A program made the position numbers and the translations under genes. A stretch of 64,000 bases of DNA from Maritimibacter sp. HL-12 (GTDB taxonomy: Bacteria; Pseudomonadota; Alphaproteobacteria; Rhodobacterales; Rhodobacteraceae): the NCBI RefSeq assembly GCF_900177545.1, contig NZ_FXBQ01000001.1, positions 2,102,122 through 2,166,121 on the forward strand, given 5' to 3'. Shown piece by piece: positions 11,749-33,346 of the stretch (position 1 is its first letter; each line of letters starts with the position of its first letter). The notes under the pieces were generated by a model, which saw only the letters and a list, made by a program, of their open reading frames with translations, ran no database searches and was not told the DNA's origin.

Positions 11749-11759
11749 GCCAGAGCGGA

Positions 11760-18940: not shown

Positions 18941-20650
18941 ATGACCAAGACCCGCCGCAACCGCGCATGGTATGGCAAGACCGACAGGGACGGTTTCATC
19001 CACCGCTCGTGGATGAAGAACCAGGGCTTTCCCGACCATGTGTTTGACGGCCGCCCGGTGATCGGCATCTGCAACACCTGGTCGGAGTTCACGCCCTGCA
19101 ATTCGGGGCTGCGCGAGCTCGCCGAAGGGGTCAAGCGCGGGGTCTGGGAGGCGGGAGGTTTTCCGGTGGAGTTCCCGGTGATGAGCCTTGGCGAAACCCA
19201 GATGAAGCCCACCGCGATGCTGTTTCGCAACCTGCTGGCGATGGACGTGGAGGAATCGGTCCGCGCCTACGGCATGGATGGGGTGGTGCTGCTCGGCGGC
19301 TGCGACAAGACCACGCCGGGCCAATTGATGGGCGCGGCCTCGGTCGATCTGCCGACCATCGTGGTCAGCGCCGGCCCGATGCTCAATGGCAAGTGGAAGG
19401 GCCGCGACATCGGCTCGGGCACCGACGTGTGGAAATTCTCCGAAGCGGTGCGTGCGGGCGAGATGACCTTGCAGGACTTCATGGCCGCTGAAAGCGGCAT
19501 GAGCCGCTCGAAGGGCGTCTGCATGACGATGGGCACGGCCAGCACCATGGCATCGCTGGTGGAGGCGATGGGGATGAGCCTGCCGCTGAACGCGGCACTG
19601 CCCGCCGTCGATTCGCGGCGCATGGCGTTGGCACACATGACCGGCAGGCGTATTGTCGAAATGGTGGAAGAAGACCTGAAGTTTTCCGACGTCGCCACCC
19701 GCGCAAGTTTCGAAAACGCCATCCTTGCCAACGCGGCGGTGGGCGGCTCGACCAACGCGGTGGTGCACCTGCTCGCCATTGCCGGGCGGCTCGACATCGA
19801 GCTTTCGCTCGACGATTTCGAGATCGGTTCCGAGGTGCCCTTGCTCGTCAACTGCATGCCCTCGGGGCAATACCTGATGGAAGACTTCGCCTATGCCGGG
19901 GGGATGCCGGTGGTTCTGAAGGAGCTTGCGCCGCTGCTGCGCCCGGCGCGCACGATCATGGGGGGCGAGATCTCGGCCTATGCCGAAGGGGCCGAATGCT
20001 ACAACGACGACGTGATCCGCCCGCTCGCGAACCCGCTCAAGCCCGCATCCGGGGTGCGGGTTCTGCGCGGCAATCTCGCGCCGGACGGGGCGATCATCAA
20101 ACCTTCCGCCGCCTCGCCGCATCTGCTGGAACACGAGGGCGAGGCGCTGGTGTTCGAGAGCATCGAAGACTTCAAGGCCAATATCGACCGCGAGGATCTG
20201 GCCGTGACTCCCGATACCGTTCTGGTGCTGAAAGGCTGCGGGCCGAAGGGCTACCCCGGGATGCCCGAGGTCGGCAACATGCCGATCCCGGCGCGGCTGG
20301 TGAAGCAAGGTGTGCGCGACATGGTACGGATTTCGGATGCGCGGATGTCGGGCACCGCTTTCGGAACCGTGGTGCTGCACGTCGCGCCCGAGGCCCAGGC
20401 CGGTGGCCCGCTGGCGCTGGTGCACACCGGCGACCGGGTGCGGCTTTCCGCGAAGGACGGAAAACTGGAATTGCTCGTCGATGCCGCCGAACTGGAGCGC
20501 CGCCGCGTCGCGTGGCGGCCCGATCCGCCGCGCTATACCCGTGGCTACGCCAAGCTCTATTTCGATCACGTCATGCAGGCCGACCGGGGGGCCGATCTCG
20601 ATTTTCTCGTCGGCAAGGATACCCGTCCGGTGACACGGGAGAGCCATTGA
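18941..20650 (+). CDS. IlvD/Edd-family sugar-acid dehydratase, probable galactonate (or arabinonate) dehydratase
   Basis: This 569-residue Fe-S dehydratase likely converts D-galactonate to 2-keto-3-deoxygalactonate. Cys53, Cys121 and Cys194 (in TPCNSG, GGCDKTTPG and GVCMTMGTAS) have the same spacing as the [2Fe-2S] ligands of Rhizobium L-arabinonate dehydratase. Lys123 is in the position of that enzyme's carbamylated lysine, and RMSGTAFG near the C-terminus carries the catalytic Ser. Strict amino-acid biosynthesis IlvD is less likely, given the neighbours: SDR, dgoK, dgoA and lactonase. The enolase-family DgoD usual in enterics is absent, so this enzyme probably fills its place. It may also act on L-arabinonate or fuconate. 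Its stop overlaps the SDR start as TGATG. Confidence 0.85.
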   Translation: MTKTRRNRAWYGKTDRDGFIHRSWMKNQGFPDHVFDGRPVIGICNTWSEFTPCNSGLRELAEGVKRGVWEAGGFPVEFPVMSLGETQMKPTAMLFRNLLAMDVEESVRAYGMDGVVLLGGCDKTTPGQLMGAASVDLPTIVVSAGPMLNGKWKGRDIGSGTDVWKFSEAVRAGEMTLQDFMAAESGMSRSKGVCMTMGTASTMASLVEAMGMSLPLNAALPAVDSRRMALAHMTGRRIVEMVEEDLKFSDVATRASFENAILANAAVGGSTNAVVHLLAIAGRLDIELSLDDFEIGSEVPLLVNCMPSGQYLMEDFAYAGGMPVVLKELAPLLRPARTIMGGEISAYAEGAECYNDDVIRPLANPLKPASGVRVLRGNLAPDGAIIKPSAASPHLLEHEGEALVFESIEDFKANIDREDLAVTPDTVLVLKGCGPKGYPGMPEVGNMPIPARLVKQGVRDMVRISDARMSGTAFGTVVLHVAPEAQAGGPLALVHTGDRVRLSAKDGKLELLVDAAELERRRVAWRPDPPRYTRGYAKLYFDHVMQADRGADLDFLVGKDTRPVTRESH

Positions 20651-21420
20651 TGAGCGCCTATGCCAGCTTTCACGACCTTGCGGGCGCAAGCGTGTTCATC
20701 ACCGGCGGTGGCGCGGGCATTGGCGCGGCGCTGACCGAGGGGTTCATCGCCCAGGGCGCGCGCGTGGCCTTCGTGCAGCGGTCGGATGGCACCGCCTTCT
20801 GCGACGAGGTCGAGGCCCGGCAAGGCGCGCGGCCCATGTTCATCCGCTGCGACATCACCGATATTGCCGCGCTGAAGGCGGCGGTGGCCGAGGCCGCCGA
20901 AACGCACGGGCCGGTGACGGTGCTCGTCAACAATGCCGCGAACGACGAGCGGCACCGGACGGAAGACGTGACGGAGGCGTTCTGGGATCGCGCCCAGGCG
21001 ATCAATCTCAAGGCGCATTTCTTCGCCGCGCAGGCGGTTGTGGCGGGGATGCGCGCGGCCGGGGGCGGGGCGATCATCAACGTCACCTCGATCAGCTACA
21101 TGATGGGGCAGGGGGCCTACCCGGCCTATACCAGCGCGAACTCGGCCCTGAACGGGCTTACCCGCAGCCTCGCGCGCGAGTTCGGCCCCGATGGCATCCG
21201 CGTGAATGCGCTCGCCCCGGGCTGGGTGCTCACCGCGAAGCAACTGGAGAAATGGGCCACCCCGCAGGCGCTTGCCGCCCATCTCGACCGGCAATGCCTC
21301 AAGACCCATCTCGCGCCGGAGGACATGGTCGATGCGGCGCTGTTCCTGGCCTCGAAGGCAAGCCGCATGATGACCGGGCAGGCGCTGGTGGTCGATGGCG
21401 GCGTGGTGGTGACGGGATGA
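20650..21420 (+). CDS. Short-chain dehydrogenase, candidate galactose dehydrogenase, catalytic Lys replaced by Asn
   Basis: A 256-residue Rossmann-fold SDR placed where a D-galactose 1-dehydrogenase is needed. VFITGGGAGIGAAL is the cofactor glycine motif, LVNNAAN the structural NNAG-like motif, Asn119 is present, and Ser148 and Tyr160 fit the catalytic pair. The usual Y-x-x-x-K reads Y160-T-S-A-N164: the Lys that lowers the Tyr pKa is Asn, codon AAC at 21139-21141. The frame is otherwise intact and the C-terminus is normal (GQALVVDGGVVVTG). It starts inside the dehydratase stop and ends inside the dgoK start, so it is clearly part of the operon. Either the activity is altered or another residue compensates. 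Confidence 0.85.
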   Translation: MSAYASFHDLAGASVFITGGGAGIGAALTEGFIAQGARVAFVQRSDGTAFCDEVEARQGARPMFIRCDITDIAALKAAVAEAAETHGPVTVLVNNAANDERHRTEDVTEAFWDRAQAINLKAHFFAAQAVVAGMRAAGGGAIINVTSISYMMGQGAYPAYTSANSALNGLTRSLAREFGPDGIRVNALAPGWVLTAKQLEKWATPQALAAHLDRQCLKTHLAPEDMVDAALFLASKASRMMTGQALVVDGGVVVTG

Positions 21421-22319
21421 GCGGGCTGGCCGACTGGATCGCGGTGGACTGGGGCACCTCCCGGCTCAGAGCCTGGCCGATCGACGGCGCGGGGCACGTG
21501 ATTGCCCACCTTTCCTCCGACAAGGGCATGGGCGGACTGGCACCACAGGCGTTCGAGCCGGCCCTGCTCGATCTCGTTGCGCCCCACCTCGACCCGGTGC
21601 GCGCCACCCCGGTGATTGCCTGCGGCATGGTCGGCGCGCGGCAGGGCTGGGCCGAGGCAGGCTACGAGGCGGTGCCCTGCGCGCCGCCGGGGTTGGCGCG
21701 TGCCACCCGCGCGCCCGCGACCGATCCGCGCCTTGACGTGGCGATCCTGCCCGGGCTGCGCCAGGAAAGCCCCGCCGACGTGATGCGGGGCGAGGAAACC
21801 CAGATCGCCGGATTCCTCGCCGCCACGCCCGGTTTCGACGGCACGATCTGCCTGCCCGGAACGCATAGCAAGTGGGTGCAGGTCAGCGCCGGCGAGGTGG
21901 TGAGCTTTCGCAGCGTGATGACGGGTGAGCTTTTCGCCGCTATTGCCGGGCACACGGTTCTGCGCCACAGCCTTGGCGAGCCGAACGATGAGAGCGCCTT
22001 CCTCGAGAGCGTTGCCGAGGCCATGGCCCGGCCCGAGGCACTGACCGCGCGCCTGTTCGGGCTCAGGGCGGAGGCGCTGTTGCACGGGCTGGCCGCCGAT
22101 ACCGCCGCCGCGCGGGCCTCGGGGCTGCTGATCGGGCTCGAACTGGCGGGCGCGCGCGGCTACTGGCTGGGCACCCGGCTTGCGCTGGTCGGTGCCCCGG
22201 CGCTCACCGCGCGCTATGCCGCCGCGCTGGCGGCGCAGGGGGCCGTGCCCGAGATTGCCGACGGCGATGCCATGGTGCTGGCGGGGTTGCAGGCCGCATG
22301 GGCGCAGGCAGGAGAGTAG
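21417..22319 (+). CDS. dgoK: 2-Dehydro-3-deoxygalactonokinase
   Basis: This 300-residue kinase phosphorylates 2-keto-3-deoxygalactonate at C6 in the DeLey-Doudoroff pathway. Family signatures are the N-terminal phosphate loop WIAVDWGTSRLRAWPI, VIACGMVGARQGWAEAGY, VMRGEETQIAGFLA and ICLPGTHSKWVQV. C-terminal GLLIGLELAGAR and DGDAMVLAGLQAA complete the family pattern. Length is standard. Its ATG overlaps the SDR stop (ATGA) and dgoA starts one base after its own stop. Confidence 0.93.
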   Translation: MSGLADWIAVDWGTSRLRAWPIDGAGHVIAHLSSDKGMGGLAPQAFEPALLDLVAPHLDPVRATPVIACGMVGARQGWAEAGYEAVPCAPPGLARATRAPATDPRLDVAILPGLRQESPADVMRGEETQIAGFLAATPGFDGTICLPGTHSKWVQVSAGEVVSFRSVMTGELFAAIAGHTVLRHSLGEPNDESAFLESVAEAMARPEALTARLFGLRAEALLHGLAADTAAARASGLLIGLELAGARGYWLGTRLALVGAPALTARYAAALAAQGAVPEIADGDAMVLAGLQAAWAQAGE

Positions 22320-22320
22320 G

Positions 22321-22926
22321 ATGGAGCGCAAGATCATCGCCATTCTGCGCGGGGTCACGCCCGGAGAGGTGGTTGCCATCGGCGCGGAACTGATCGGGGC
22401 CGGGATCGACATCATCGAAGTGCCGCTCAATTCGCCCGACCCGCTCGATAGCATCGCGGCGCTTGCCCGCGCCTTCAGCGGGCAGGCCCGGATCGGCGCG
22501 GGCACGGTGCTCGCGCCACGCGAGGTGGGGCAGGTGCACGCGGCGGGCGGAACGTTGATCGTCTCGCCCGACACCAATCCGGAGGTGATCGCGGCGACCA
22601 AGGCGGTGGGAATGGCGTCCTATCCCGGCGCGATGACGCCAAGCGAGTGCTTCGCTGCGCTGCGCGCCGGGGCCGACGGGCTCAAGCTGTTCCCCGCCAG
22701 CCTGATCGGGCCGGAGGGGCTGAAAGCGATCCGCGCGGTGCTGCCCGGCGGCACCGAGACCTTCGCTGTCGGTGGCGCGGGGCCGGACAACTTTGCCGCA
22801 TGGCGTGCAGCGGGGGCCACCGGTTTCGGGATCGGCACCGCTCTGTATGCACCGGGGCGGACACCGGCCGATGTGCGCCAGCGGGCGGAGGCCATCGTGA
22901 CCGCTTATGACGAGGCATGGCGATGA
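22321..22926 (+). CDS. dgoA: 2-Dehydro-3-deoxy-6-phosphogalactonate aldolase
   Basis: This 201-residue class I aldolase splits KDPGal into pyruvate and glyceraldehyde-3-phosphate. It shows the KDPG/KDPGal aldolase pattern: IIAILRGVTPGEVVAIG, the catalytic Glu in IIEVPLNSPDP, the phosphate/substrate region FSGQARIGAGTVL, and the Schiff-base Lys in DGLKLFPASLIGPEGL. IEVPLNSP with DPLDSI favours the galactonate type. The start follows the dgoK stop directly, with GGAGAG upstream. It ends in an ATGA overlap with the lactonase gene. Confidence 0.93.
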   Translation: MERKIIAILRGVTPGEVVAIGAELIGAGIDIIEVPLNSPDPLDSIAALARAFSGQARIGAGTVLAPREVGQVHAAGGTLIVSPDTNPEVIAATKAVGMASYPGAMTPSECFAALRAGADGLKLFPASLIGPEGLKAIRAVLPGGTETFAVGGAGPDNFAAWRAAGATGFGIGTALYAPGRTPADVRQRAEAIVTAYDEAWR

Positions 22927-23774
22927 CGGTGCCGCAGGTTTTCGACAAACGCCGATGCGAGCTTGGAGAAGGCCCGCTGTGGCATCCGGAGCGGGGGCAG
23001 CTCTTCTGGTTCGACATCCTCGGCAAACGCTTGCTCAGCCGCGACGAAACCGGCGCGCGGCAGTGGCAGTTCGACGAACACGTGTCGGCGGCGGGCTGGA
23101 TCGACCGCGACAGCCTGCTCATCGCCTCGCAAACCGCGCTGTTCGCCTTCGAAATCGAAACCGGCGCGCGCTCGGATATTGTGCCGCTGGAGGCCAACAA
23201 TCCGGTGACCCGCTCCAACGATGGCCGCGCCGATCCGTTCGGCGGCTTCTGGATCGGCACGATGGGCAAGGCGGCGGAACCGGGTGCCGGAGCGATCTAC
23301 CGCTTCTTCGAGGGCAAGGTAGAACGGCTTTTCGCCGGTATCACCATCTCCAACGCGATCTGTTTTGCGCCCGACGGGCGCACCGCCTATTTCGCCGATA
23401 CCGTCGAGCGCCGGATCCAGCGCCAGAAGCTCGACGATGCGGGCTGGCCCGAAGGCGCGCCAAAGGTGTTTGTCGATCTCTCGCGGGATGGGCTGAACCC
23501 GGACGGGGCCGTGGTCGACGCCGAGGGGTGTTTGTGGAATGCGCAATGGGGGGCGTCGCGGATCGCACGCTATGCGCCCGATGGCGTCTTCCTGTCGGCC
23601 ATTTCCATTCCGGCGAGACAGACAAGCTGCCCCGCTTTCGGCGGCGCTGAGCTGAAAACCCTTTTTGCCACCAGTGCCGCGGAGGGGATTGACGCCCCCG
23701 CCGACGGCGACGGGCTGACCTTCTCGGCAGACACCGGGATCACCGGTCAGGCCGAGCACAGAGTGAAGGTTTGA
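22923..23774 (+). CDS. SMP-30/gluconolactonase-family sugar lactonase, probable galactonolactonase
   Basis: This 283-residue six-bladed beta-propeller lactonase would open galactono-lactone to galactonate, between the SDR and the dehydratase. Metal-site segments are CELGEGPLWHP (Glu), TRSNDGRADPFGGFWIGTMG (Asn and neighbouring loop), ITISNAICFAPDG (Asn) and YFADTVERRI (Asp). I place the start at 22923, which gives an ATGA overlap with dgoA and a GAGG at proper distance; an ATG at 22917 is too close to that site. Substrate identity is inferred from the operon. No signal peptide, so cytoplasmic. Confidence 0.88.
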   Translation: MTVPQVFDKRRCELGEGPLWHPERGQLFWFDILGKRLLSRDETGARQWQFDEHVSAAGWIDRDSLLIASQTALFAFEIETGARSDIVPLEANNPVTRSNDGRADPFGGFWIGTMGKAAEPGAGAIYRFFEGKVERLFAGITISNAICFAPDGRTAYFADTVERRIQRQKLDDAGWPEGAPKVFVDLSRDGLNPDGAVVDAEGCLWNAQWGASRIARYAPDGVFLSAISIPARQTSCPAFGGAELKTLFATSAAEGIDAPADGDGLTFSADTGITGQAEHRVKV

Positions 23775-23778
23775 CACC

Positions 23779-25758
23779 ATGAAACGCGCGCTTGGATGCT
23801 GCTACTACCCCGAACACTGGCCCCGCGAGATCTGGGCCGAGGATGCCGCCCGGATGGCCGAAGCGGGCCTCACATGGGTGCGGATCGGTGAATTTGCCTG
23901 GTCGCGGCTGGAGCCCTCTCCCGGCGATTACCGCTTCGAGTGGCTCGACGAGGCGATCGAAACGCTGGGCGCGGCCGGCCTCAAAGTGGTGCTCGGCACC
24001 CCCACGGCGACGCCGCCGCGCTGGATGATTGAGCGGCACCCCGACATGCTCGCGGTCGATGCCGAGGGCCGTCCGCGCGGCTTTGGTTCGCGGCGGCACT
24101 ACGATTTCAGCCACGAGGGCTACAAGGCCGAATGCGCGCGGATCGTCACCGAGCTTGCCCGGCGCTATGGCCGCAACCGCCATGTGGCCGCGTGGCAGAC
24201 CGATAACGAGTATGGCTGCCACGATACCGTGATTTCCTGGTCCGACGCGGCGCGGCAAGCCTTTCGGCAGTGGCTGCGCAACCGCTATCCCGGCGCGGGC
24301 AACGATGGCGATATCGAGGCGCTCAACACCGCCTGGGGCAACGTGTTCTGGTCGATGGAATACCGCGATTTCGACGAGATCGCCTTGCCCAACCTCACGG
24401 TGACCGAGCCGAACCCGTCGCACAGCCTCGATTTTCGCCGCTTCAGCTCCGACCAGGTGGTGGCGTTCAACCTGCTTCAGGCCGAGATCATCCGCGCCTA
24501 TTCCGACGCACCGATCGCGCATAACTACATGGGCAAGGAAACCCGCTTCGATCACTTCGCGGTCGGGGCCGATCTCGATATCGCCAGTTGGGACAGCTAC
24601 CCGCTCGGCTTTCTCGAAGACCGGATCGAGCGCGAGGCGGGTTACAAGCGTCGCTTCGCGCGGCAGGGCGACGCCGATTTCCAGGCCTTCCACCACGATC
24701 TCTATCGCGCCGTGGGGCGCGGGCGGATGTGGATCATGGAGCAGCAGCCCGGCCCGGTGAACTGGGCACCCTACAATCCGCTGCCGCTGCCGGGCATGGT
24801 ACGGCTCTGGACTTGGGAGGCCTTCGCCCACGGGGCCGAGGTGGTGAGCTATTTTCGCTGGCGGCAGGCACCGATGGCGCAGGAACAGATGCACGCGGGG
24901 CTGCTGCGGCCCGACAGCGCCGAGGCACCTGGGCTGGCGGAGGCGCGGGCCGTGGCGGCCGAGATCGCCGAGGCACCGGAGGTGATGCAGGCGCAGGCAC
25001 CGGTGGCCATCGTCTTCGACTACGACGCCGATTTTGCATGGACCGTGCAGCCGCACGGGCGCGGGCTCGACTATTTCTGGCTGGTGTTCGACACCTACCG
25101 CGCCCTGCGCGCGCTGGGCCAGTCGATCGACATCCTGCCGCCCGGCACGCGCGATTTCAGCGGCTATCGCCTCGTCGCGGTGCCCGGCATGATGCACATG
25201 CCCGACGATCTGAAATCGGCGTTGGCGGCGAGCGAGGCCGTGGTGGTGATCGGCCCGCGCAGCGCGGCGCGCGACGCGACGATGCGCATTCCGGTGCCGC
25301 TGCCGCCGGCCCTGCCCGGGCTCGACGTGACCGTGGCGCGGGTGGAAACCATCCGCCCCGACATGCCGCTCGGGCTGGAGAAGGGCGGCGCGGCGATCGG
25401 CTACCGAGAGGTGCTTGAAGGCGGTGCGGCGGTGCTGGCGCGCACGGAGGCGGGCGAGGCGGTGCTCGTCGGGACCGACAAGCTGCATTACCTCGGGGCC
25501 TGGCTCGACCAGCCGGGCCTGCGCCGGGTCATGGCCGGGCTGTGCGACGCGGCCGGGCTGGAGACGCTGGATCTGCCCGATGGGGTGCGGCTGCGGGAGA
25601 CCGGCACGGAACGCTTCTGGTTCAACTACGACAGCGAGGCCCACGAGGTGGCCGGGCGTCACCTCGGGCCGGTCTCGGTGGTGCGCGAGGCGGTGGCGCG
25701 CAAAGACCAGGCGCTGCCGAGACAGGGTTTTCCCGGTGCCTGGAACGCAGGGGCGTGA
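23779..25758 (+). CDS. Beta-galactosidase, glycoside hydrolase family 42
   Basis: This 659-residue cytoplasmic enzyme hydrolyses beta-galactosides such as lactose. GH42 signatures: GCCYYPEHWPREIWAEDAAR at the N-terminus, VRIGEFAWSRLEPSPGDY, the acid/base Glu144 in WQTDNEYGCHDT, and the nucleophile Glu321 in WIMEQQPGPVNWAPYNP. A trimerisation domain follows (IVFDYDADFAWTVQP) and a small C-terminal beta domain. Length is normal. It ends the galactoside operon and is convergent with the uncharacterised operon, 33 bases away. Together with the GH36 enzyme it lets one transporter operon feed both alpha- and beta-linked galactose into the pathway. Confidence 0.95.
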   Translation: MKRALGCCYYPEHWPREIWAEDAARMAEAGLTWVRIGEFAWSRLEPSPGDYRFEWLDEAIETLGAAGLKVVLGTPTATPPRWMIERHPDMLAVDAEGRPRGFGSRRHYDFSHEGYKAECARIVTELARRYGRNRHVAAWQTDNEYGCHDTVISWSDAARQAFRQWLRNRYPGAGNDGDIEALNTAWGNVFWSMEYRDFDEIALPNLTVTEPNPSHSLDFRRFSSDQVVAFNLLQAEIIRAYSDAPIAHNYMGKETRFDHFAVGADLDIASWDSYPLGFLEDRIEREAGYKRRFARQGDADFQAFHHDLYRAVGRGRMWIMEQQPGPVNWAPYNPLPLPGMVRLWTWEAFAHGAEVVSYFRWRQAPMAQEQMHAGLLRPDSAEAPGLAEARAVAAEIAEAPEVMQAQAPVAIVFDYDADFAWTVQPHGRGLDYFWLVFDTYRALRALGQSIDILPPGTRDFSGYRLVAVPGMMHMPDDLKSALAASEAVVVIGPRSAARDATMRIPVPLPPALPGLDVTVARVETIRPDMPLGLEKGGAAIGYREVLEGGAAVLARTEAGEAVLVGTDKLHYLGAWLDQPGLRRVMAGLCDAAGLETLDLPDGVRLRETGTERFWFNYDSEAHEVAGRHLGPVSVVREAVARKDQALPRQGFPGAWNAGA

Positions 25759-25791: not shown

Positions 25792-26469
25792 CTACTTGCC
25801 GCGCCAGCTATCGAGCCAGCGCTTGATCCGGCCGCGCTTGTCATCGGCATAGGTATCGACCTTCTCCCAGGCGTCACGGGTGTCTTCCAGCGCGGGATCA
25901 ATCGTGCGTTCCCGAAATTGCAGCCACATCGCCCGGACGACAAGCACCAGCACGATCATCGTGATGAAGAAGAAGATGTTGAACCAGGGGATGATCGTCG
26001 CGTCCGGGCTTTCCACCGGCCGGATCGCCACCGCGTTGGGGAAGGTTGAAAGCAACTCCATCCGCCAGCCATAATGCGTCATCACCGCCCATTTCGGGTT
26101 CTCCGGCGTCGAGCGCAGATCGTCGGCCTCGGTCTGCAGGCTGGCGGTATCGAACTTGAAGTAGGGCGGCCATGACCAGCCGGTATCTTCGTTGCGATAG
26201 ACCATGACCTCGTCGGACTCGCGCTGGATGAAACCGAAAAGCCAGGATTTCTTGCGCACGGTCTGGATGAACTGCACGTCGCGGTTGGAAAGCGAGGTGG
26301 CCTGATCGTCAGGGCTGGCCCAGAAGATCCGTGTCCAGTCGTTGAGGTCCTGGCGTTCCTGGTAGGTGTTGACCACCCGCACCACGTCATGCTGCGGCAA
26401 CGTGTAGTGCAGGAAGGCGCCGAGGATCAGCGCGACGATGGCGAAAACGATGTTACGGGCAGTGCGCAT
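25792..26469 (-). CDS. DUF1523-family membrane-anchored protein, last gene of the nine-gene operon
   Basis: A 225-residue envelope protein of unknown function, by pattern a DUF1523 member. An N-terminal membrane anchor (NIVFAIVALILGAFLHYTL) is followed by a periplasmic domain of about 130 residues with HDVVRVVNTYQERQD, WLFGFIQRESDEVMVYRNED and a Trp/Tyr-rich stretch, then a second membrane helix (WFNIFFFITMIVLVLVVRAMW) and a charged cytoplasmic tail (RDAWEKVDTYADDKRGRIKR). The final gene of the operon, it starts 7 bases after the preceding stop. I cannot assign a biochemical role. Topology suggests it passes something between periplasm and the cytoplasmic AAA+ part of the system. Confidence 0.8.
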   Translation of the reverse strand: MRTARNIVFAIVALILGAFLHYTLPQHDVVRVVNTYQERQDLNDWTRIFWASPDDQATSLSNRDVQFIQTVRKKSWLFGFIQRESDEVMVYRNEDTGWSWPPYFKFDTASLQTEADDLRSTPENPKWAVMTHYGWRMELLSTFPNAVAIRPVESPDATIIPWFNIFFFITMIVLVLVVRAMWLQFRERTIDPALEDTRDAWEKVDTYADDKRGRIKRWLDSWRGK

Positions 26470-26476
26470 GGGAGCC

Positions 26477-26752
26477 TCAGGTGACGTTGACGATGATCAT
26501 GATCGCGAACATCGCGACCAGCGGGACGACGTAGATGAGCGCGATCAGCTTGGGGCGGATCGAGGCGTTGTATTGTTCCATGCCCTTCTCGATGAAGGCG
26601 GCACGCTGGGGGCTGCTGGTGTCGCCCGGATTGCGCTCGGCCCATTCGTTTTCGAGGTTCTCGCGCCGGAGCGACCGGGCATAGAGCGACACGGCGAGAT
26701 AGATCACCGAAAGCAGGAGAAAGCCGAAAACGAGCAGTCGTGCGAATGCCAT
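26477..26752 (-). CDS. Small two-helix membrane protein, uncharacterised
   Basis: A 91-residue protein with hydrophobic helices at both ends (LLVFGFLLLSVIYLAVSLYA and LIALIYVVPLVAMFAIMIIV) and a charged loop of about 45 residues between them (RSLRRENLENEWAERNPGD). Both ends are hydrophobic, so the loop is probably cytoplasmic given its arginines near the first helix. AAGGAGGTAGCC is a strong ribosome site. It is tightly placed between the 449-residue protein and the DUF1523 gene. I do not recognise the family. Confidence 0.75.
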   Translation of the reverse strand: MAFARLLVFGFLLLSVIYLAVSLYARSLRRENLENEWAERNPGDTSSPQRAAFIEKGMEQYNASIRPKLIALIYVVPLVAMFAIMIIVNVT

Positions 26753-26754
26753 GG

Positions 26755-28104
26755 CTACCTCCTTACCGCGCCCCAGGGGCCTACGAGATCGACGATATCA
26801 TCTTTCGGGGGGCGGGGGCCAGTGCGCCACGGCGACGGCGGCGGCCCTCCGAACAGCGCCTCGCGCGCCCCGGCCTTGTTGGCCGCATAATCGCGGGCGA
26901 GGAATTCCACCACGAAGTCTTTCTTGGCGTCCGGCCAGTCGCGATACGCGGCGTAGAAGGCCGGTTTGTGGGTGATGAACAACTGCCGGATATCGAGCGG
27001 CGCAAGCTCGGAGAGAAGCTGGTTGATCAGGTCGCGGTCGGGGTGATCGGCGCGGGCGCGCAGGGTGTAGAAATAGGCCGGGTTGTCCGAGGCGATGCGC
27101 GGCCACTTGCCGCCGTTGAGCGCCCAGCGCACGAGTTCGCCCAGCTTGCGAAACTCCTCCGGCAGGTGCCCCGCCATGCGCTGCGCCAGCCGGTGCAGGC
27201 TGCGCGGATCGAAGCCGTCGATCTTCAAGCCTTCCGAGGTGGCGGCATCGACGAGGATGAAATCCATCTTCTGGCGCAGGATCGCCGCACCGTCGACGCC
27301 GCGCGCCTTGATCACCGGCTCCACGAGTTCGTTCACCTCCAGAAAGGTGGCGATGGCGTTGCGCATGGTGAGGTCGTAGGTCTCCACCGGCAATTCCCCC
27401 AGTTCGCCACGCGGCTTCACCGAGATCGCGGCGGGGCGGCCTTCATCGCGAAACACGTAGATCCCGCCGAACAGCGCCGTCCAGAAATTGCCCTGCTCAT
27501 AGGTCGGGCGGCCGAGATCGATCGGGTTGCGGGTCACGTCGCCGGTTTTCTTCGCAAGCTCGATCATCTCGGCGATCAGCACGTCGTCGAACCAGGCATC
27601 TTCCTCGCCCTGGAACCGCTCGATCTTCTCGGCCAGCTTGCGGGCATTGGCGACATGCGCCTGGGTGGTGTCGGCCACCACGGTGATCTTGCGGATGTCG
27701 AAGAGCCGCGCGGGGGAGGAGACCTCGAACACCGAATTATCAAGCTCACCCGCCACCGCATCATGCGCGGTGAGGGCGAAAAGCTTGGCCTCGTTCTCCT
27801 CGATGAACTGGCGCAGGATCTCGCGCGAGGTCGAAAACTGCGCATTGAGCAGCGGCGCGGTTTTCTGCCTTGTGTCGAGGATGATGAACTGCCGGTTCAC
27901 CCCGCCCGGATTGAGATAGAAATGATCGCCCAACTCCTCGCCGATCTCGTAGGAATAGCCCGAGATATCGACGTGAAACTCTGGCAGCGCCGTGCGCTTG
28001 CCCGACAGCCGCTCCAGCGCGCGGTTATAGCGCTCGACCAGCGCCGGGCTGTCGACCCGGATCAGGTTGCCGAACATCAGGCCACGGGAGATGAGGCGCT
28101 TCAT
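26755..28104 (-). CDS. Conserved 449-residue protein of unknown function (resembles DUF6638)
   Basis: A soluble-looking protein with no signal peptide or clear membrane helix. The beginning, MKRLISRGLMFGNLIRVDSP, and FHVDISGYSYEIGEELGDHF match what I remember of an alphaproteobacterial family called DUF6638; I cannot verify the number. There is no catalytic motif I can name. The middle has alternating helix-forming charged stretches (IAEMIELAKKTGD, AQRMAGHLPEEFRKLGELVR) and the C-terminus is Pro-rich. The start at 28104 is supported by GGAG upstream; the longer frame is Cys/Arg-rich and lacks a site. It lies 136 bases after the previous gene, the largest gap in this operon. Confidence 0.75.
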   Translation of the reverse strand: MKRLISRGLMFGNLIRVDSPALVERYNRALERLSGKRTALPEFHVDISGYSYEIGEELGDHFYLNPGGVNRQFIILDTRQKTAPLLNAQFSTSREILRQFIEENEAKLFALTAHDAVAGELDNSVFEVSSPARLFDIRKITVVADTTQAHVANARKLAEKIERFQGEEDAWFDDVLIAEMIELAKKTGDVTRNPIDLGRPTYEQGNFWTALFGGIYVFRDEGRPAAISVKPRGELGELPVETYDLTMRNAIATFLEVNELVEPVIKARGVDGAAILRQKMDFILVDAATSEGLKIDGFDPRSLHRLAQRMAGHLPEEFRKLGELVRWALNGGKWPRIASDNPAYFYTLRARADHPDRDLINQLLSELAPLDIRQLFITHKPAFYAAYRDWPDAKKDFVVEFLARDYAANKAGAREALFGGPPPSPWRTGPRPPKDDIVDLVGPWGAVRR

Positions 28105-28240
28105 TGTTTGTGCTCCGCCTGTGCAGAGCCCCGCCCGGCGGCACGCCGGGCAGCGCCCGACCGCCCCCCCCACGGGCGGGCGCTTCTCGCCCACCCGCGG
28201 TCGGGCCCTGCCCGGCTTGTGGTGCGCGCCATGTCGTTCG

Positions 28241-28576
28241 TCATCCCTGCGCCCCCTTTCCCCGGCGATACACTACCAGAAACGTCACCACATAGGCCAC
28301 GATCGGCACGAAGCTCGCGGCGTAGACCATGACGAAGAACTGACCGCCGAGTGCCGTTTCCACCGCGATCCCCTGTCGGATGAACAGCCATTCCACCAGC
28401 ACCGCGAGCTTGGCCGCGCCCTGCAGCACCGCCAGCGAGATCACGATGGCGATGAGCAGGACGATGGCGTTCAACGCGCCCCCCGCGGCGGCGATCCGGC
28501 GCGCGACTGCGCTTGCGACGAGCGCCACCACGGCGGCGGCGACAAGCGTTGTTGCGATCAGAATGGTCCAGTCCAT
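28241..28576 (-). CDS. Three-helix membrane protein, uncharacterised
   Basis: A 111-residue integral membrane protein: WTILIATTLVAAAVVALVAS, then ALNAIVLLIAIVISLAVLQG, then a third helix (FFVMVYAASFVPIVAYVVTF) ending in a basic tail YRRGKGAQG. The start at 28576 is preferred because AGGGA lies 7 bases before it; an ATG seven codons upstream has a poorer site. The stop of the upstream membrane-protein gene is 10 bases away. Family not recognised. Confidence 0.7.
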   Translation of the reverse strand: MDWTILIATTLVAAAVVALVASAVARRIAAAGGALNAIVLLIAIVISLAVLQGAAKLAVLVEWLFIRQGIAVETALGGQFFVMVYAASFVPIVAYVVTFLVVYRRGKGAQG

Positions 28577-28586
28577 GCCCGTTTCC

Positions 28587-28955
28587 CTATCTTTCATTCT
28601 CGCCACGCGGGCCGTCACCGTCCACCCTGCGCGCGATATCTTCGCCACGCCGTCGCTCCACCGCCTGCGCGCGCACGAACCACGAAAGCACGAGCAGCGG
28701 TGCCCAGACCAATGCGGCCAGCCCCGAGCCGCGCAGCACCGCGGCGAGCCGGGGGGTGCCATCGCCAGCCCCGTAAAGCAGCGCGAACAGCCCCGCCCCC
28801 GCCACGAGCGTCAGCGCCGCGGCAAGCCCGATCCCGAGCGCGAGCCGCCTTTGCGAGCGCGTCGCGCGCGGCACCGTCACCAGCGGCAGCACGAGGGCGA
28901 GTGCCGTCAACGCGGCCAGTGGCAAGCCGGTATTGAGAAGGCCGAAGCTCTCCAT
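28587..28955 (-). CDS. Three-helix membrane protein, uncharacterised, coupled to the AAA+ ATPase gene
   Basis: A 122-residue integral membrane protein with three hydrophobic segments (LPLAALTALALVLPLVTV, LALGIGLAAALTLVAGAGLF, and LAALVWAPLLVLSWFVRAQ) and a strongly charged C-terminal tail (ERRRGEDIARRVDGDG). Its ATG shares a base with the stop of the ATPase gene (TGATG), so the two products are made together and probably work together. Family not recognised. Confidence 0.72.
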   Translation of the reverse strand: MESFGLLNTGLPLAALTALALVLPLVTVPRATRSQRRLALGIGLAAALTLVAGAGLFALLYGAGDGTPRLAAVLRGSGLAALVWAPLLVLSWFVRAQAVERRRGEDIARRVDGDGPRGENER

Positions 28956-30895
28956 CAGCCAACCTTGCCTGCGAGGTAGCGCCGCTTGGCTTCCGCGGTG
29001 AGCCGGAAGTCGCGCGCCATCCGCTCGATCGCCGCTTCGTCGGAGGTATCGGCATAGCGGAACTCGCTGTCGGCGTAGCGGTTGATCTCCTGGATCACCA
29101 TGTCCACCGTGATCGGCTGGCGCAATTCCTCGATCATCGCTTTTTTCACGTCATAAGGCTGGAACAGGAACACCTCGGGCTCTTCCATCCACTCATCCGG
29201 CAGTTCGAAATCCATCGCCCGCACCTTGATCGCGTCGGTGATGTTCTTGATCGCGCGGCCGGTGAACCTCTCGTCCGCCTCCTGGATGGCCTTGAGATAA
29301 GTGCCGAGCTTGGCGATGGTGTTGAGCTTGCCGATATCCTTCGCGACCCGCTCGAACACCCGTTCCAGACCCTCCTCCCGCGGGCGGGCGTGGCGCGCGA
29401 AGCTCGCGGCTACCGCCCGCTTGATCTCCTGCGCGGCGTAAAGCTCGTGGTCGCCGAGCGGGATCGCGTGGTTCTTGCCCATCAGCAGGTGCAGGATGTC
29501 GATGTAATCCTCCCGCGTCTGCGGCCCATCGACGAGAAAGCGCGCGCCTGCCCGCTGGCGCAGCGCATCATCGACGTTCTCGGGGTAGTTCGAGAACATC
29601 CCGAAGGTGCAGTTGCCGCGCACCACGGTATTGGCGCCGGAAAAGCTCTCCATCAGAACCGCGGTGATCTCCAGTTGCCCCGCCGATGATTGCCGGTCGC
29701 CGCGCTTGCCGGCAAGCTGGTCGATATCGTCGATCGTGCCGAAGCCGATCACGTTCGGGTCGAGCACGGTGTTGATGAAGGCCTTGGCGTTCTGGGCCGA
29801 TTTGCCCTGGTAGCTGTCGATGCTCTCGGTCGAAAGGTTCTGGTAGCGGAACGGGTAGCCCGCGACCTCGCAATAGCCGTTGATCAACCCGGCCATCATC
29901 CGGATCAGCGTGGTCTTGCCGGTGCCCGGCTTGCCGTCGCCCATGAAGGTGAAGATGAAACCGCCAAGCTCGGCAAAGGGGTTGAGCTTGCGGTCGAAAT
30001 CATAGGCCATCAGCATCTTGGCCAGCTTCATCGCCTGGTACTTGGCGATGTGGTTGCCCACCACCTCGTGCGGTTTCTTGAAACTCATGGTGAGCCGGGT
30101 GCCGCGCGCCTTTCGGCTCGGGGTGAAGCCCGAGATGGCGAGATCGTCGGCGGCAACGTGGTAGTTCACCCCGGTGAACGGGGAAAGCCGCGGCGCGGTC
30201 TGGGCGCGCAGGGCGACCTGCTCCATCAACTGCTCGGCAAAGGCCATCACCGTGGCCACCAGCCGTGCCTCGTCATCGGCCATCAGCGCGATGTTCTGGT
30301 CAAGCTCCCACAGGGCCCCGTGCAGCGCCAGCATGGCGTTGTCGGTCAACACCTCCTCGACGCGGCCCACCTCCACGCTCACCTCCCCCGCATGCGGCGC
30401 GAGCAGGAAGGAGGTGGCATTGGCGAAGACCGAAAGCGCCACCAGCGCCTCCGCCGCGAGCAGTTCCGCGAAGGCTTCGGCCCGGTCGGCCCCGAGCGCG
30501 GCTTCGAGGTTCTGCTTCTTCATCGCGGTGAGTCCGGTCTGCCCGCCGTAGGCCTCGGCCACCGCGAGCGAGATCGCCAGCGCCCGGCGCAGCGTGTGCA
30601 GAACCGTGGCCTGAAGTGGCGAGACGATCGGATCGTCGCCGTCGCTCGCCTCGATCCGGGCGATCAGGTGCACCCCCTCGGGCCGGGCCGTCGAGCGCGT
30701 CACCAGCCCCGGCGTGGTCGAGCGAAACCGCCGCCCGGTGCTCACCCCGGGAGAACGCTCCACTGCCTCGGCCGCGACCTTGGCCTTGGCGATCCTCGGG
30801 GTATGGTCGATGCCTTCGAGCATCGCCGCCGCCGCCGCGTAATGCGCGCGGATTTCTTCCTCGCGAAGCTCCATCCGGTCTGCCGGCAATGACAT
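28955..30895 (-). CDS. AAA+ ATPase of the uncharacterised nine-gene operon
   Basis: A 646-residue cytoplasmic ATPase. A helical N-terminal half (about residues 1-300) precedes one AAA+ module: Walker A GDGKPGTGKTT (319-329), Walker B-like VIGFGTIDDID (382-392), sensor-1 region FGMFSNYPENVD around 436, and a second region of homology DALRQRAGARFLVDGP holding Arg finger candidates. The hhhhDD form and the R-rich region resemble classic AAA proteins (Vps4/CDC48/FtsH clade) more than MoxR or helicase-loader types, but I cannot align it here. Walker A has an unusual insertion-like KP. The start at 30895 follows AAGGAG. No protease or helicase motif is visible, so it is probably a remodelling ATPase acting on the operon's coiled-coil or membrane partners. 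Confidence 0.85.
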   Translation of the reverse strand: MSLPADRMELREEEIRAHYAAAAAMLEGIDHTPRIAKAKVAAEAVERSPGVSTGRRFRSTTPGLVTRSTARPEGVHLIARIEASDGDDPIVSPLQATVLHTLRRALAISLAVAEAYGGQTGLTAMKKQNLEAALGADRAEAFAELLAAEALVALSVFANATSFLLAPHAGEVSVEVGRVEEVLTDNAMLALHGALWELDQNIALMADDEARLVATVMAFAEQLMEQVALRAQTAPRLSPFTGVNYHVAADDLAISGFTPSRKARGTRLTMSFKKPHEVVGNHIAKYQAMKLAKMLMAYDFDRKLNPFAELGGFIFTFMGDGKPGTGKTTLIRMMAGLINGYCEVAGYPFRYQNLSTESIDSYQGKSAQNAKAFINTVLDPNVIGFGTIDDIDQLAGKRGDRQSSAGQLEITAVLMESFSGANTVVRGNCTFGMFSNYPENVDDALRQRAGARFLVDGPQTREDYIDILHLLMGKNHAIPLGDHELYAAQEIKRAVAASFARHARPREEGLERVFERVAKDIGKLNTIAKLGTYLKAIQEADERFTGRAIKNITDAIKVRAMDFELPDEWMEEPEVFLFQPYDVKKAMIEELRQPITVDMVIQEINRYADSEFRYADTSDEAAIERMARDFRLTAEAKRRYLAGKVG

Positions 30896-30936
30896 GGCCT
30901 GCTCCTTTTGCTGGGGCCCCGGGCGCGCCCGGGCCC

Positions 30937-32079
30937 TCACATGTAACTCAACACCCGCCCGCCCGGGCTCACCACGAACTTGCGCACCTCGCGAAACCCG
31001 GCCGGGTTTTTTTCGGCCAGAACCTGGAACGGGCGCTGCGGCAGGATGATCGCGCGGCTCATCCGCGTGACGCCGCCGTCAGCGCCCGCTACGGCGAAGG
31101 GATCGAGCGCGAAGATCTCGCGCTCGACGTTGCCGAACCAGCCGGATTTTTCCGTCTCCACCCGCTCGCTCTCAAGGTCTTCCACCGTCCAGGCCAGCGC
31201 CCAGTCTTCGCCGGGCGGGCTTTTCGCCTCTTCGAGCACCTCGCGCAGCGGCCCGGTCTGGCGGGTGAAGGCGTGCGAATACATCGGGCCGACGTGAATG
31301 CGCCTCAGCCGCTTGGGGTGCAGGTCGTCGAAATCGCGGTCGAATCCACTGGCGATGGTGACCAGCTTCAGCCCCGCCACCGATTGCGCCATCAGGTGCG
31401 CCTGCACCTCGGGCCAGCGGCGCTCGTCTTTCGGGAGCGCGGTTCGGCCGGTATCGTCCACGTCCATCAGGTAGATCGTGGGGATATTGAGGCCGGCGTC
31501 GTAGACCGCCCAGTGCACGAGGTAGCGCCGCCGGAGCGCGCGGCCTTCCTCGAGGTTGCCGAGCCAGACCGCATCGGCATCCATCTGCGGCCAGAACAGA
31601 TCGCCGCGCGCAAGCTCCTCGTAGTAGAGCCGCTGGCTCATCGCGTATTGCAGCTTGGTGGGGACCGTGAGGTTGCCGACGATCTCGCGCACCATCTGCG
31701 CCTTCAGCTCGTCAGGCCCTGGCATGTTGCGGATGTGGCGATGGGCCTGTGCCGCGTCGGTGGCCATCTGCATCAGTTCGGAATGAACCGGAAAGCCGGA
31801 ATCCTCGCGGTCGAAGGTGAGTTGCCCGGGTAGCGGCCCCTCGATCCGCCCGGCCATGTGATACTTGTTGGCCAGCGCCCGGAAGGTGAAGCCCAACGCC
31901 ACGATGTAGCGCGCCAGCACCTCGACCTCGCGCCGGTCGAGCGCGCCTTCGGCCTCGAACTGTGCCGCCACCCGCGCCAGATGCCCGGTGATCGCGCGAA
32001 ACTTGGCGAAGTAGCGCCGGGTGACGCGGGTGTCTTCCAGCGCGATATGATCGGAAGGGAGTGGGCCGGGCCGGGTCAT
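30937..32079 (-). CDS. Conserved 380-residue protein of unknown function
   Basis: A soluble protein with no signal peptide, starting at 32079 (MTRPGPLPSDHIALED), whose ATG overlaps the previous stop by ATGA. An N-terminal helical part (YFAKFRAITGHLARVAAQFE, EVEVLARYIVALGFTFRALA) is followed by an alpha/beta part containing IPTIYLMDVDDTGR and GLKLVTIASGFDRDFDDLHP. The DVDD and DRDFDD acidic clusters could bind metal, but no known family motif is met. C-terminal FRELRK-like FREVRKFVVSPGGRVLSYM. It lies 41 bases before the ATPase gene. I do not recognise it. Confidence 0.75.
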   Translation of the reverse strand: MTRPGPLPSDHIALEDTRVTRRYFAKFRAITGHLARVAAQFEAEGALDRREVEVLARYIVALGFTFRALANKYHMAGRIEGPLPGQLTFDREDSGFPVHSELMQMATDAAQAHRHIRNMPGPDELKAQMVREIVGNLTVPTKLQYAMSQRLYYEELARGDLFWPQMDADAVWLGNLEEGRALRRRYLVHWAVYDAGLNIPTIYLMDVDDTGRTALPKDERRWPEVQAHLMAQSVAGLKLVTIASGFDRDFDDLHPKRLRRIHVGPMYSHAFTRQTGPLREVLEEAKSPPGEDWALAWTVEDLESERVETEKSGWFGNVEREIFALDPFAVAGADGGVTRMSRAIILPQRPFQVLAEKNPAGFREVRKFVVSPGGRVLSYM

Positions 32080-32270
32080 TTCCGCGCCTGTCTTTCGCGC
32101 CACCACAGCCAGCCGCCTGCGACAGCCACCACCGCCAGCGCCGCGGCGGTGATCCAACCGGCGGGGCTGGAGAGGCCCGAGCGTGCGCCGACAAGGTCGC
32201 GCGGCAAGAGGCTCATCGCCGCGAGGGCGAAGAGGGCAAGGAGAATCGCGATCGTGGCGAGTGTTTTCAT
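32076..32270 (-). CDS. Small two-helix membrane protein, uncharacterised
   Basis: A 64-residue protein: MKTLATIAILLALFALAAMS, then LLPRDLVGARSGLSSP as a short loop, then a second helix WITAAALAVVAVAGGWLWW and a basic tail RERQARK. It overlaps both neighbours by ATGA, at the coiled-coil stop and at the next gene's start, so it is a real translated gene despite its size. The first helix could be read as a signal sequence, but the second makes a membrane protein more likely. Confidence 0.7.
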   Translation of the reverse strand: MKTLATIAILLALFALAAMSLLPRDLVGARSGLSSPAGWITAAALAVVAVAGGWLWWRERQARK

Positions 32271-33346
32271 GCCCCGTAGAGGTTCTTGTCGTGTTTCTCG
32301 ACGATCTCGGCAAAGCGCCGCGCGAAGCGTTCGTCGGCCCTGGCCTTGGCTTCCAGCACATCGCGGGCAAAGACCATGTGTTCCTCGTGCGCTTCCATCA
32401 TGTCGGCCATCTTCTGGTTCGTCGCGGTGCCGATCGACGCCATCGCGGCCTGGGCTTCCTTGTCGGTTTCCACCCCGATCTCGTTGATCCGGTGGGCGAC
32501 GTCCTGCTGCTGGGCGGTTTTCAGCGACTTCGACAGCGCGTCGTAGAGCACCACGCGCTGCTTGGTGTCGGTTTGCAGCTTGTTGATCAACACCATCTGG
32601 GTGGCGGCCTGGTTCTGCAGCGAATCGACCCAGGTCTTGCCCTTTTCGATGTAGCGCTCCAGCGTCTGGCTGCGGGCGAGCTTGACCTGCTCTTCCTGCA
32701 CCAGCGCGTTGTAGCGGGCGTTCATCTCGGCGAGTTCGGTTTCCAGCTTGGTGCGGGCGGCGGCATCCTGCTCGACCGCGATCTTGTTTTCCAGCTTGAT
32801 GATCTCGGGGTCCATCCCCGCAATCTCGGCGCGCAGTTGCTCGAGTTCGCCGACGGTCATTTCACGCTCGTCGAGGGTTTCGGACAGGTTGGTCTCGACC
32901 CGCGCCTTCTGCTCGTTCAGCATGTCGAGCTGGCCCTGCAGGAGCTTCACGATCACGTCGGATTTCGCGATCAGATCCTGCAGCTTGTCGTCGATCGAGG
33001 CGGTGCGCATCCGCTCCTGCCGCAGGCTTTCCGACTTGTGTTTGGAGAAGATGCCCACGAGGCTTTCCCAGCCCGTTTTCGTGCGCATCTCGTCGAAATC
33101 CTTCGAGAACGCGGCAGTGATATCGTCGAGCCCCATGATCAGTTCGGCGATGTTGGCGTTCATGATATCGGTATGCGTGTGCACGTCATCGAGCGTGGCG
33201 TTCTCGATGTCGATGGCGATATCGTCGCCGGTTTTCAGCTTCGTCCGGGCGGTTTCGATCCGGGTGGTCAGTTCTGAGATCTTGCTTTGCGCTTCGGCCA
33301 CCTGGGCCTGGCTTTCCCGAATCTGGGTGTCGAGGGTCGCGGCCAT
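32267..33346 (-). CDS. Long coiled-coil protein, first gene of the nine-gene operon
   Basis: A 359-residue protein, almost wholly predicted helical with heptad-like charge patterning: ESQAQVAEAQSKISELTTRI (9-28), LNEQKARVETNLSETLDERE (142-161), LRAEIAGMDPEIIKLENKIA, AAARTKLETELAEMNARYNA. A less helical patch (TGWESLVGIFSKHKSES) sits near 90-106. The pattern LERYIEKGKTWVDSL plus LINKLQTDTKQRV recalls TelA-type toxic-anion-resistance proteins and, more loosely, PspA/ESCRT-III-like coiled coils, but neither match is strong. No membrane segment. GAGGAAAATCCC precedes the ATG. It is divergent from the SLC13-type gene across a 219-base gap that should hold the operon promoter. Confidence 0.8.
   Translation of the reverse strand: MAATLDTQIRESQAQVAEAQSKISELTTRIETARTKLKTGDDIAIDIENATLDDVHTHTDIMNANIAELIMGLDDITAAFSKDFDEMRTKTGWESLVGIFSKHKSESLRQERMRTASIDDKLQDLIAKSDVIVKLLQGQLDMLNEQKARVETNLSETLDEREMTVGELEQLRAEIAGMDPEIIKLENKIAVEQDAAARTKLETELAEMNARYNALVQEEQVKLARSQTLERYIEKGKTWVDSLQNQAATQMVLINKLQTDTKQRVVLYDALSKSLKTAQQQDVAHRINEIGVETDKEAQAAMASIGTATNQKMADMMEAHEEHMVFARDVLEAKARADERFARRFAEIVEKHDKNLYGA

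Follow-up and report, generated by a model that had tools for sequence, protein, structure and literature searches.

A conserved operon built around an AAA ATPase and an elongated helical protein in Maritimibacter sp. HL-12 and other bacteria, with a plausible role in the cell envelope

Results and discussion

A nine-gene operon on the minus strand

The DNA analysed here, called the window below, is a stretch of 64,000 nucleotides from the alphaproteobacterium Maritimibacter sp. HL-12 (contig NZ_FXBQ01000001.1, positions 2,102,122 to 2,166,121). Positions 25792-33346 of the window hold an operon of nine genes, all on the minus strand and transcribed in the order A, B, C, D, E, F, G, H, I, among them the genes for an AAA ATPase (D) and for a long helical protein (A). 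An earlier annotation made from the DNA letters (the original prediction) had placed nine minus-strand open reading frames (ORFs) here, and their positions and lengths match ours. The genes are listed below; transmembrane (TM) segments were assigned by hydropathy throughout.

32267..33346, minus strand: A, core gene, 359-residue protein predicted to be elongated and all-helical (coiled coil), from an AlphaFold2 model, hydropathy and a conserved C-terminal pattern
32076..32270, minus strand: B, 64-residue protein with two TM segments (hydropathy), filling a variable slot between A and C
30937..32079, minus strand: C, core gene, 380-residue soluble protein with a helical N-terminal part and a beta-rich C-terminal part (model)
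28955..30895, minus strand: D, core gene, 646-residue AAA ATPase (PF00004 match and key residues)
28587..28955, minus strand: E, 122-residue protein with three TM segments (hydropathy), in a variable slot between D and G and akin to the largest cluster of proteins found in that slot
28241..28576, minus strand: F, 111-residue protein with three to four TM segments (hydropathy), also in the variable D-G slot
26755..28104, minus strand: G, core gene, 449-residue DUF6638 protein (PF20343; Pfam)
26477..26752, minus strand: H, 91-residue protein with two TM segments (hydropathy), which adjoins most Rhodobacterales copies and the Halomonas-titled copies (synteny)
25792..26469, minus strand: I, 225-residue DUF1523 protein (PF07509; Pfam) with TM segments at about residues 7-25 and 165-183 and a domain between them

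A and B overlap by 4 bases, as do B and C, and D and E share 1 base, in line with the overlapping junctions first described. Gaps of 41, 136, 2 and 7 bases separate C from D, F from G, G from H and H from I, respectively. E and F lie 10 bases apart, or overlap by 11 bases if F starts at an alternative ATG at 28597, which would give a protein of 118 residues.

Pfam searches assigned three of the proteins to families. I matched DUF1523 with an E-value of 1.9e-66 (223 bits, cut-off 23), which upholds the assignment already proposed for the 225-residue protein, and G matched DUF6638, a family that the original prediction had not named, with 2.3e-230 (765 bits, cut-off 27); nearly the full profile was covered in both cases. 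D matched the AAA family PF00004 with 1.4e-12 (48.6 bits, cut-off 21.2). No Pfam family matched A, B, C, E, F or H above its gathering cut-off, and none of the nine proteins exceeded the cut-off of an NCBIfam model. Two TM segments were counted in B, H and I, three in E, three to four in F, none in A, C and G, and one borderline segment in D; the membrane proteins B, H and E are as first described, and F may have one segment more than the three first described. The ratio of nonsynonymous to synonymous substitution rates (dN/dS), measured against a locus of the same genus (L026), was lowest for A (0.11), followed by D (0.18), C and G (0.21 each), I and H (0.29-0.30), and E and F (0.37 each). 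For B no homologue was available for comparison; the eight genes that could be compared are under purifying selection.

Six of the genes form a conserved unit

A, C, D, G, H and I form a conserved unit, and B, E and F vary between genomes. The original prediction was to be abandoned if the genes were not conserved together; by synteny and co-occurrence the first six are, and the other three are not. One genome per species was scanned; of the at least 538 encoders obtained, the best 80 by likeness to the Aestuariispira protein were kept, and four plasmid loci were added. The core order A-C-D-G is present in 78 of these 84 loci. Their gene content is ACDGHI in 67, ACDGI in five, ACDG in five and ACDGH in one, and six are without the full core. 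Four of the exceptions (L079, CDGHI; L085, DGHI; L093 and L117, ACD) lie at a contig end, with the missing genes on the truncated side, and a fifth (L096, CDGI) has a run of N, a scaffold gap, where A and the start of C are expected. The sixth, L070, is a split operon in a metagenome-assembled genome (G778): D stands by itself near a pheT-like gene, A is on contig C23 and G-H-I are on contig C29 (C was not sought in this genome).

Other samples agree. All 13 further loci fetched from a scan of the phylum have A-C-D-G, and of two loci from other families one keeps A-C-D-G-I (L060) and one A-C-D-G-H-I (L061). Within the family, 16 of 20 loci, the window included, have A-C-D-G-H-I in one order, and another (L040, ACDGI) is without H only. 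Two more (L018 and L038) run into contig ends, and in L041 (genome G028) D is not followed by G in the 5.6 kb of contig downstream, the DUF6638 gene being on another contig. The genes A, C, D and G thus stay together and hold the same order across long evolutionary distances, and their grouping is far from chance.

The membrane partners that had been proposed beside the ATPase core were also found. Among the 80 surveyed loci, the two-TM DUF1523 protein I lies beside the core in 75 and H in 70; of the five loci without I, four stop at a contig end and the fifth is the split operon. Over 112 loci the pairwise distances between the proteins are correlated among A, C, D and G (r of 0.93-0.96), a value to which shared ancestry contributes, and among close pairs the rank correlation is 0.61-0.80. 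The distances of D correlate with those of H at 0.58 and with those of I at 0.47 (90 loci).

Distribution and probable transfer of the gene set

With a single-sequence search D was found in 20 of 60 relatives, comprising 20 of 36 genomes of the same family and none of 24 outside it. Broader scans for D scored the three best first-look candidates per genome, so that weak relatives may be missed. The class-wide scan placed D in seven of 385 genomes, and DUF6638 exceeded its cut-off in the same seven; an eighth genome (G284) has a DUF6638 match below the cut-off. The phylum scan placed D in 26 of 398 genomes, 14 of the same family, 11 of other families of the class and one of another class. A was found in four of 240 genomes scanned, all four of which carry D. 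Carriers among the best 80 of the at least 538 encoders include Ruegeria, Shimia, Sulfitobacter, Loktanella, Leisingera, Gemmobacter, Tabrizicola, Roseibium, Stappia, Aestuariispira and two Halomonas-titled records. Among plasmid records, D and G occur in the same ten (Sinorhizobium 4, Vibrio 4, Shinella 1, Rhizobium 1).

All six genes ACDGHI are present in the locus from another class (L206) and in the two Halomonas-titled records (L094 and L097). The D proteins of these three are 96-97% alike but only about 80% identical to their nearest others in the set, which are from Rhodobacteraceae. These loci tell more than the distance correlations: the unit appears to have travelled as a whole, likely by horizontal transfer. 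Overall, the set is mostly kept vertically and occasionally transferred.

The membrane part differs in two other groups of loci. In all 12 rhizobial-type loci (L147, L148 and L209-L218, the last ten from genomes of one family) a DUF2333 protein with two TM segments lies downstream of the core, again a membrane partner of the kind first predicted, and H and I were not found; a thymidine kinase gene lies upstream in 11 of the 12. The constant position of DUF2333 after the core ties another family of unknown function to the system. The ChvI-bound fragment F9 of S. meliloti, located in SMc02733 (PMC3687685), may fall in this operon. In the Vibrio replicons mfd follows A-C-D-G; no H, DUF1523 or DUF2333 gene was found in the stretch, and the products of the genes adjoining the core have no TM segment by hydropathy. 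Two of these loci (L146, Vibrio vulnificus NZ_CP015514.1, and L149, V. parahaemolyticus CP099927.1) lie on replicons of 0.88-0.94 Mb that are typed non-mobilizable, and there the core adjoins the replicon's own mfd and secA genes and a gene for a LysM protein. The DUF2333 swap in rhizobia and the Vibrio loci in which no membrane partner was found indicate that the core consists of four soluble proteins, to which a clade-specific membrane part is added.

The ATPase D

An alignment of D was examined next; some genomes are counted twice in it, with 118 distinct sequences among its 122 rows. Residues K327, Y362, G364, D389, D390, N436, R446, R448, R452, G546 and R547 are identical in all 122 rows. 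We take these to be the Walker A lysine (K327), the pore-loop residues (Y362 and G364), the Walker B aspartates (D389 and D390), the sensor-1 asparagine (N436), the arginines of the second region of homology (R446, R448 and R452) and the sensor-2 residues (G546 and R547). D is accordingly a classic-clade AAA protein with intact key residues, and the ATPase named in the original prediction was confirmed by the PF00004 match and by the invariant Walker A, Walker B, sensor-1 and second-region arginine positions. Most AAA proteins have a Glu as the second Walker B residue; in D this residue is an Asp in every row.

Conservation is concentrated in the AAA part. Among nine divergent members 95 of its 201 positions are invariant, as against 14 of the N-terminal 265, and a profile of the N-terminal domain, the place of the MIT domain in Vps4 proteins, matched no PDB chain up to an E-value of 10. 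Matches of the AAA module to classic AAA structures lay between 1e-6 and 1e-3 and favoured no clade. Matches of the single sequence included an i-AAA protein (1.2e-6), a fidgetin-like protein (4.1e-5), Vps4 (2.5e-4) and Rpt4; the profile of D matched 14 sequences at E<=0.001, including VCP-like, i-AAA and Rpt4 proteins and no Vps4. In both kinds of search FtsH-type, proteasomal or VCP-like AAA proteins resemble D at least as much as Vps4 does, and the earlier suggestion that D might fall in the Vps4 clade was not supported. D thus shares with classic AAA proteins (VCP-like, FtsH/YME1-type, Rpt and Vps4/katanin/fidgetin) the P-loop, Walker B, sensor 1, the arginines of the second region of homology, the pore tyrosine-x-glycine and the sensor-2 glycine, but differs from them in its Asp-Asp Walker B, in an N-terminal domain that has no solved match and in the lack of any one clade that stands out.

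The helical protein A and the soluble proteins C and G

The AlphaFold2 model of A has a mean predicted local distance difference test (pLDDT) score of 74.3, which is moderate, and places helices at residues 5-39, 53-97, 103-191, 195-293 and 299-353. The third and fourth form a predicted long hairpin that is followed by a further helix, with low confidence at residues 92-106 and 284-318. Helix 195-293 is the most conserved, with 26 of 99 positions invariant among nine divergent members. Nowhere else in the protein is the helical moment as high as in the C-terminal amphipathic helix, and the pattern of this helix, D..F..R[FM]..[IV], is present in 115 of 117 rows (113 distinct A sequences); the two misses are sequences cut short. 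The pattern appeared in none of 2000 shuffles of the tail of one member. We take the spacing of this helix to resemble the MIM1 motif of ESCRT-III proteins, as a lead only.

The model of C is more confident (mean pLDDT 89.6) and consists of about 160 mainly helical residues followed by the beta-rich part. No PDB fold matched C at E<=0.001. The best hit of a second fold search had a Z of 5.4 (2zyz, root-mean-square deviation 3.6, 72 residues aligned), and residues ~180-310 gave many tunnelling-fold enzymes at Z of 4-5, a common arrangement. A profile of G found no solved relative up to an E-value of 10. C and G thus appear to have no clear solved relative. The families that G and I match, DUF6638 and DUF1523, are both of unknown function, and no mention of DUF6638, PF20343 or PF07509 was found in the open-access papers searched. 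DUF1523 is named in a row of a proteomics table on Haemophilus (PMC10783040), and its mentions in those papers do not include a survey of phage shock protein (PSP) neighbourhoods (PMC11237479). In the same body of papers DUF2333 is placed beside a type VI secretion system hcp3 locus.

A remodelling machine as the leading explanation

A four-gene set that is kept together, with its usual membrane proteins, in many different bacteria probably makes one molecular machine. Our best explanation, which we put forward tentatively and below an even chance, is that the locus encodes an ATP-driven remodelling machine in which D remodels A and which is docked at the inner membrane by exchangeable proteins. 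D would form a ring and engage either the conserved C-terminal amphipathic helix of A or an adaptor, C or G. It would then thread A, or an assembly bound to A, through its tyrosine-lined pore and in this way take apart or rearrange the A assembly. C and G would serve as adaptors or co-factors that guide D, H and I would anchor the machine to the inner membrane and pass on information from the periplasm, and B, E and F may be lineage-specific membrane accessories. The likely job of such a machine would be maintenance or remodelling of the cell envelope, a role suggested solely by the membrane partners, and the envelope-remodelling idea of the original prediction remains plausible.

Several observations weigh against this explanation. 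The invariant Asp at the second Walker B position may make hydrolysis by D slow or unusual, and the N-terminal domain of D is among the parts that matched no solved structure. Sequence, profile and fold searches did not establish that A belongs to a known filament-forming family. Membrane docking would not be universal, as no neighbour with TM segments was found in the Vibrio loci. The system is patchy even within its own family (20 of 36 genomes by the single-sequence search), some D-G slots are occupied by restriction-type nucleases, and in the genomes G778 and G028 D is separated from G. Both genes are still present in these two genomes, which we counted in favour of a single machine.

An activase or chaperone is a possible, though somewhat unlikely, alternative. 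Here D, with C and G as adaptors, would act like AAA proteins of the MoxR, RavA or TRIP13 type and refold or activate a client (an enzyme or a complex), and A would be a scaffold rather than a substrate. D matches the TRIP13 model of PADLOC (4.5e-6) and EccA1 in the PDB (5.8e-4), its sensor-2 region reads F-T/S-G-R, which we liken to Pch2/TRIP13, and C is a soluble protein with a confident model that includes a beta-rich part. The TRIP13 match is, however, weaker than the match to the general AAA family, no client enzyme was recognised within the core, and A has the lowest dN/dS among the eight genes compared, a degree of constraint that would be unusual for a passive scaffold. CBASS (cyclic-oligonucleotide-based antiphage signalling system) operons with TRIP13 offered no closer parallel: the PADLOC models listed for the nine proteins included neither a HORMA protein nor a cyclase, and TRIP13 itself matched D weakly.

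Variable slots, neighbouring genes and a possible role in antiphage defence

B and the pair E-F are local fillings of two variable slots. Median gaps among the 80 surveyed loci are 1 base between G and H, 10 between H and I, 166 between A and C and 477 between D and G. Of 77 D-G gaps, 55 are at least 250 bases long and 19 are shorter than 150. The longest ORFs were taken from the long gaps, in preference to a filter on third-position GC content (GC3) that dropped likely real genes such as an Mrr nuclease; some of these ORFs may not be genes. In all, 50 of the 55 gaps yielded 65 ORFs, which fall into 35 sequence clusters and of which 36 encode at least two TM segments. The largest cluster, drawn from 12 loci, includes relatives of the E protein of the window. 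In the 20-locus family set E and F have homologues in two other loci, and no homologue of B was found in the 19 other loci, some of which are short contigs. Pfam matched four of the 65 slot ORFs, two of them as nucleases (one Mrr, one DUF559) and two weakly (a HATPase and a BrkB-type protein). The nuclease genes located between D and G are an Mrr-type gene (L069:12316-13239) and DUF559 genes at L075:12581-13270 and, in S. meliloti, at L147:13986-14390.

Outside the operon, the plus strand before 25758 encodes an SDR (short-chain) dehydrogenase, a 2-keto-3-deoxygalactonokinase, a gluconolactonase-type protein and a GH42 (glycoside hydrolase family 42) glycosidase. Together (19996-25758, plus strand, the last being a beta-galactosidase) they look like a galactoside/galactonate catabolic cluster. 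On the other flank, also on the plus strand, are genes for a CitMHS-type transporter, an M20 peptidase, an MgsA-type AAA protein and a pseudouridine synthase. Five flank proteins were sought beside the operons of relatives, and the M20 peptidase is the sole recurring neighbour, in nine of 20 loci of one set and 12 of 99 of a larger one (one of the 12 is weak).

These data bear on a role in antiphage defence, with A-C-D-G as a fixed sensor and motor core and the D-G slot holding exchangeable effectors such as membrane proteins and nucleases. The patchy spread, the occurrence of the unit in another class and the diversity of the slot with its nucleases would fit such a system, as would the weaker resemblance of two slot proteins to PADLOC models, one to DrmA (L083, 7.5e-9) and one to a CARF-HEPN model (L067, 1.2e-4). 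Yet none of the nine proteins of the window matches a defence model convincingly, a Pfam nuclease was found in just two of the 65 slot ORFs, and in the 19 loci with the shortest D-G gaps an effector is not needed. The stable neighbours (DUF2333 and thymidine kinase in the rhizobial-type loci, and the M20 peptidase) favour vertical inheritance, and D had no match in 50,697 phage records and none that was confirmed in IMG/VR by a pattern search. We therefore consider defence unlikely.

A and the PspA, ESCRT-III and TelA families

The original prediction had asked whether the coiled coil matches PspA/ESCRT-III or TelA, and A could be a divergent member of the PspA/ESCRT-III superfamily with D as its Vps4. 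The gene neighbourhoods have features in common: in these systems too an AAA gene lies beside the gene for a long helical protein and genes for membrane proteins. The survey of PSP neighbourhoods reports AAA partners, including VPS4-like ones, for PspA and Snf7 clades (PMC11237479), and a paper on Vipp1 describes a hairpin as the hallmark of the family (PMC8281802). In the superfamily alpha1 forms a hairpin with alpha2/3, and alpha5 is domain-swapped; the moderately confident model of A has a long hairpin and an additional helix after it, and the MIM1-like C-terminal helix would suit an ESCRT-III protein. A also contains a conserved stretch, W/Y/S-E-x-x-V/I-G-I/F-F (window 33029-33085, residues 88-106), that resembles the start of PspA as well as the W-E-x-x-x-G of TelA; it is short and not significant alone.

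Profile comparison with hhalign looked promising at first, with a probability of 38.7% for A and PspA (54.5% in global mode) and with the V-G-I-F-S motif of A and its next helix placed on the start of PspA. Block-shuffled decoys of PspA scored higher: with blocks of 7, 14 and 28 (60 decoys each) they reached at most 29.3, 42.5 and 51.2, respectively, as against 35.4 for the true alignment. A had no match to PspA (PF04012) or Snf7 in Pfam up to an E-value of 10, and for eight other members of the A family neither was among the 25 commonest of 47 families matched. A is thus not detectably a member of PspA/Snf7. The genome of HL-12 itself has no PspA_IM30 match at an E-value of 0.001. We also considered that PspA and D might complement each other between genomes. 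Among family members in a set of 200 genomes, four have both, three D only and one PspA only, which rules this out.

TelA kinship was first suggested by eye. A shares with TelA an all-helical build, a similar length and the W-E-x-x-x-G motif in a similar relative place. The whole-profile hhalign score of 32.7 was just above all 180 decoys (maximum 32.1), but the two halves scored below the decoy maxima (13.8 against 23.3 and 23.8 against 27.5). A has no match to TelA (PF05816), and the one true TelA of the genome is a separate gene at C2:766281. That gene lies in a row with Halogen_Hydrol, DUF2927 and Band 7/SPFH genes (L219, C2:757000-776500, ~7761-12428), possibly a separate membrane-stress locus.

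Fold searches gave no closer relative. The lists were dominated by varied helical bundles: the first rows from Foldseek included ClyA-family pore-forming proteins (E 0.005-0.1), and a second search returned STAT and syntaxin helical bundles with Z of up to 13.7, which is background for a helical bundle; the absence of PspA, Vipp1 and Vps4-type rows from such lists of helical folds proves nothing. Taken with the profile of D, which matched VCP-like, i-AAA and Rpt4 proteins and no Vps4, and with its unmatched N-terminal domain, these results make a true bacterial ESCRT-III/Vps4- or PspA-type system quite improbable, and no match of A to either proposed family went beyond decoy alignments. A secretion or transport complex energised by the ATPase is less probable still: a cytosolic ATPase does have membrane proteins as neighbours, among them one whose TM segments enclose a domain, but Pfam and NCBIfam revealed no channel, outer-membrane or substrate-binding family among the nine proteins, and the membrane genes are the less conserved part, with none found beside the core in Vibrio.

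We return to the remodelling machine of D and A. An AAA remodeller with dedicated partners is a known kind of machine, and the operon may encode one of this kind, membership in the PspA, ESCRT-III or Vps4 families being unsupported. A bolder proposal, which we regard as unlikely but worth stating, is that Alphaproteobacteria and some Gammaproteobacteria possess a hitherto unknown ESCRT-III/Vps4-like membrane-remodelling machine assembled from parts that are unrelated or have diverged beyond recognition. In it, a dedicated AAA ring would pull on the C-terminal helix of A, with two adaptors of unknown families and exchangeable anchors in the inner membrane.

Implications

Vps4 with ESCRT-III is one example of an AAA machine that works with its own helical partner, and such machines have proved to run basic processes of the cell. 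The complete set described here, which includes several protein families of unknown structure and function, occurs in the easily grown genera Ruegeria, Sulfitobacter, Loktanella and Sinorhizobium, which puts its role within direct reach of gene deletion experiments. With this operon, A, C, DUF6638, DUF1523 and, in rhizobia, DUF2333 gain a common context.

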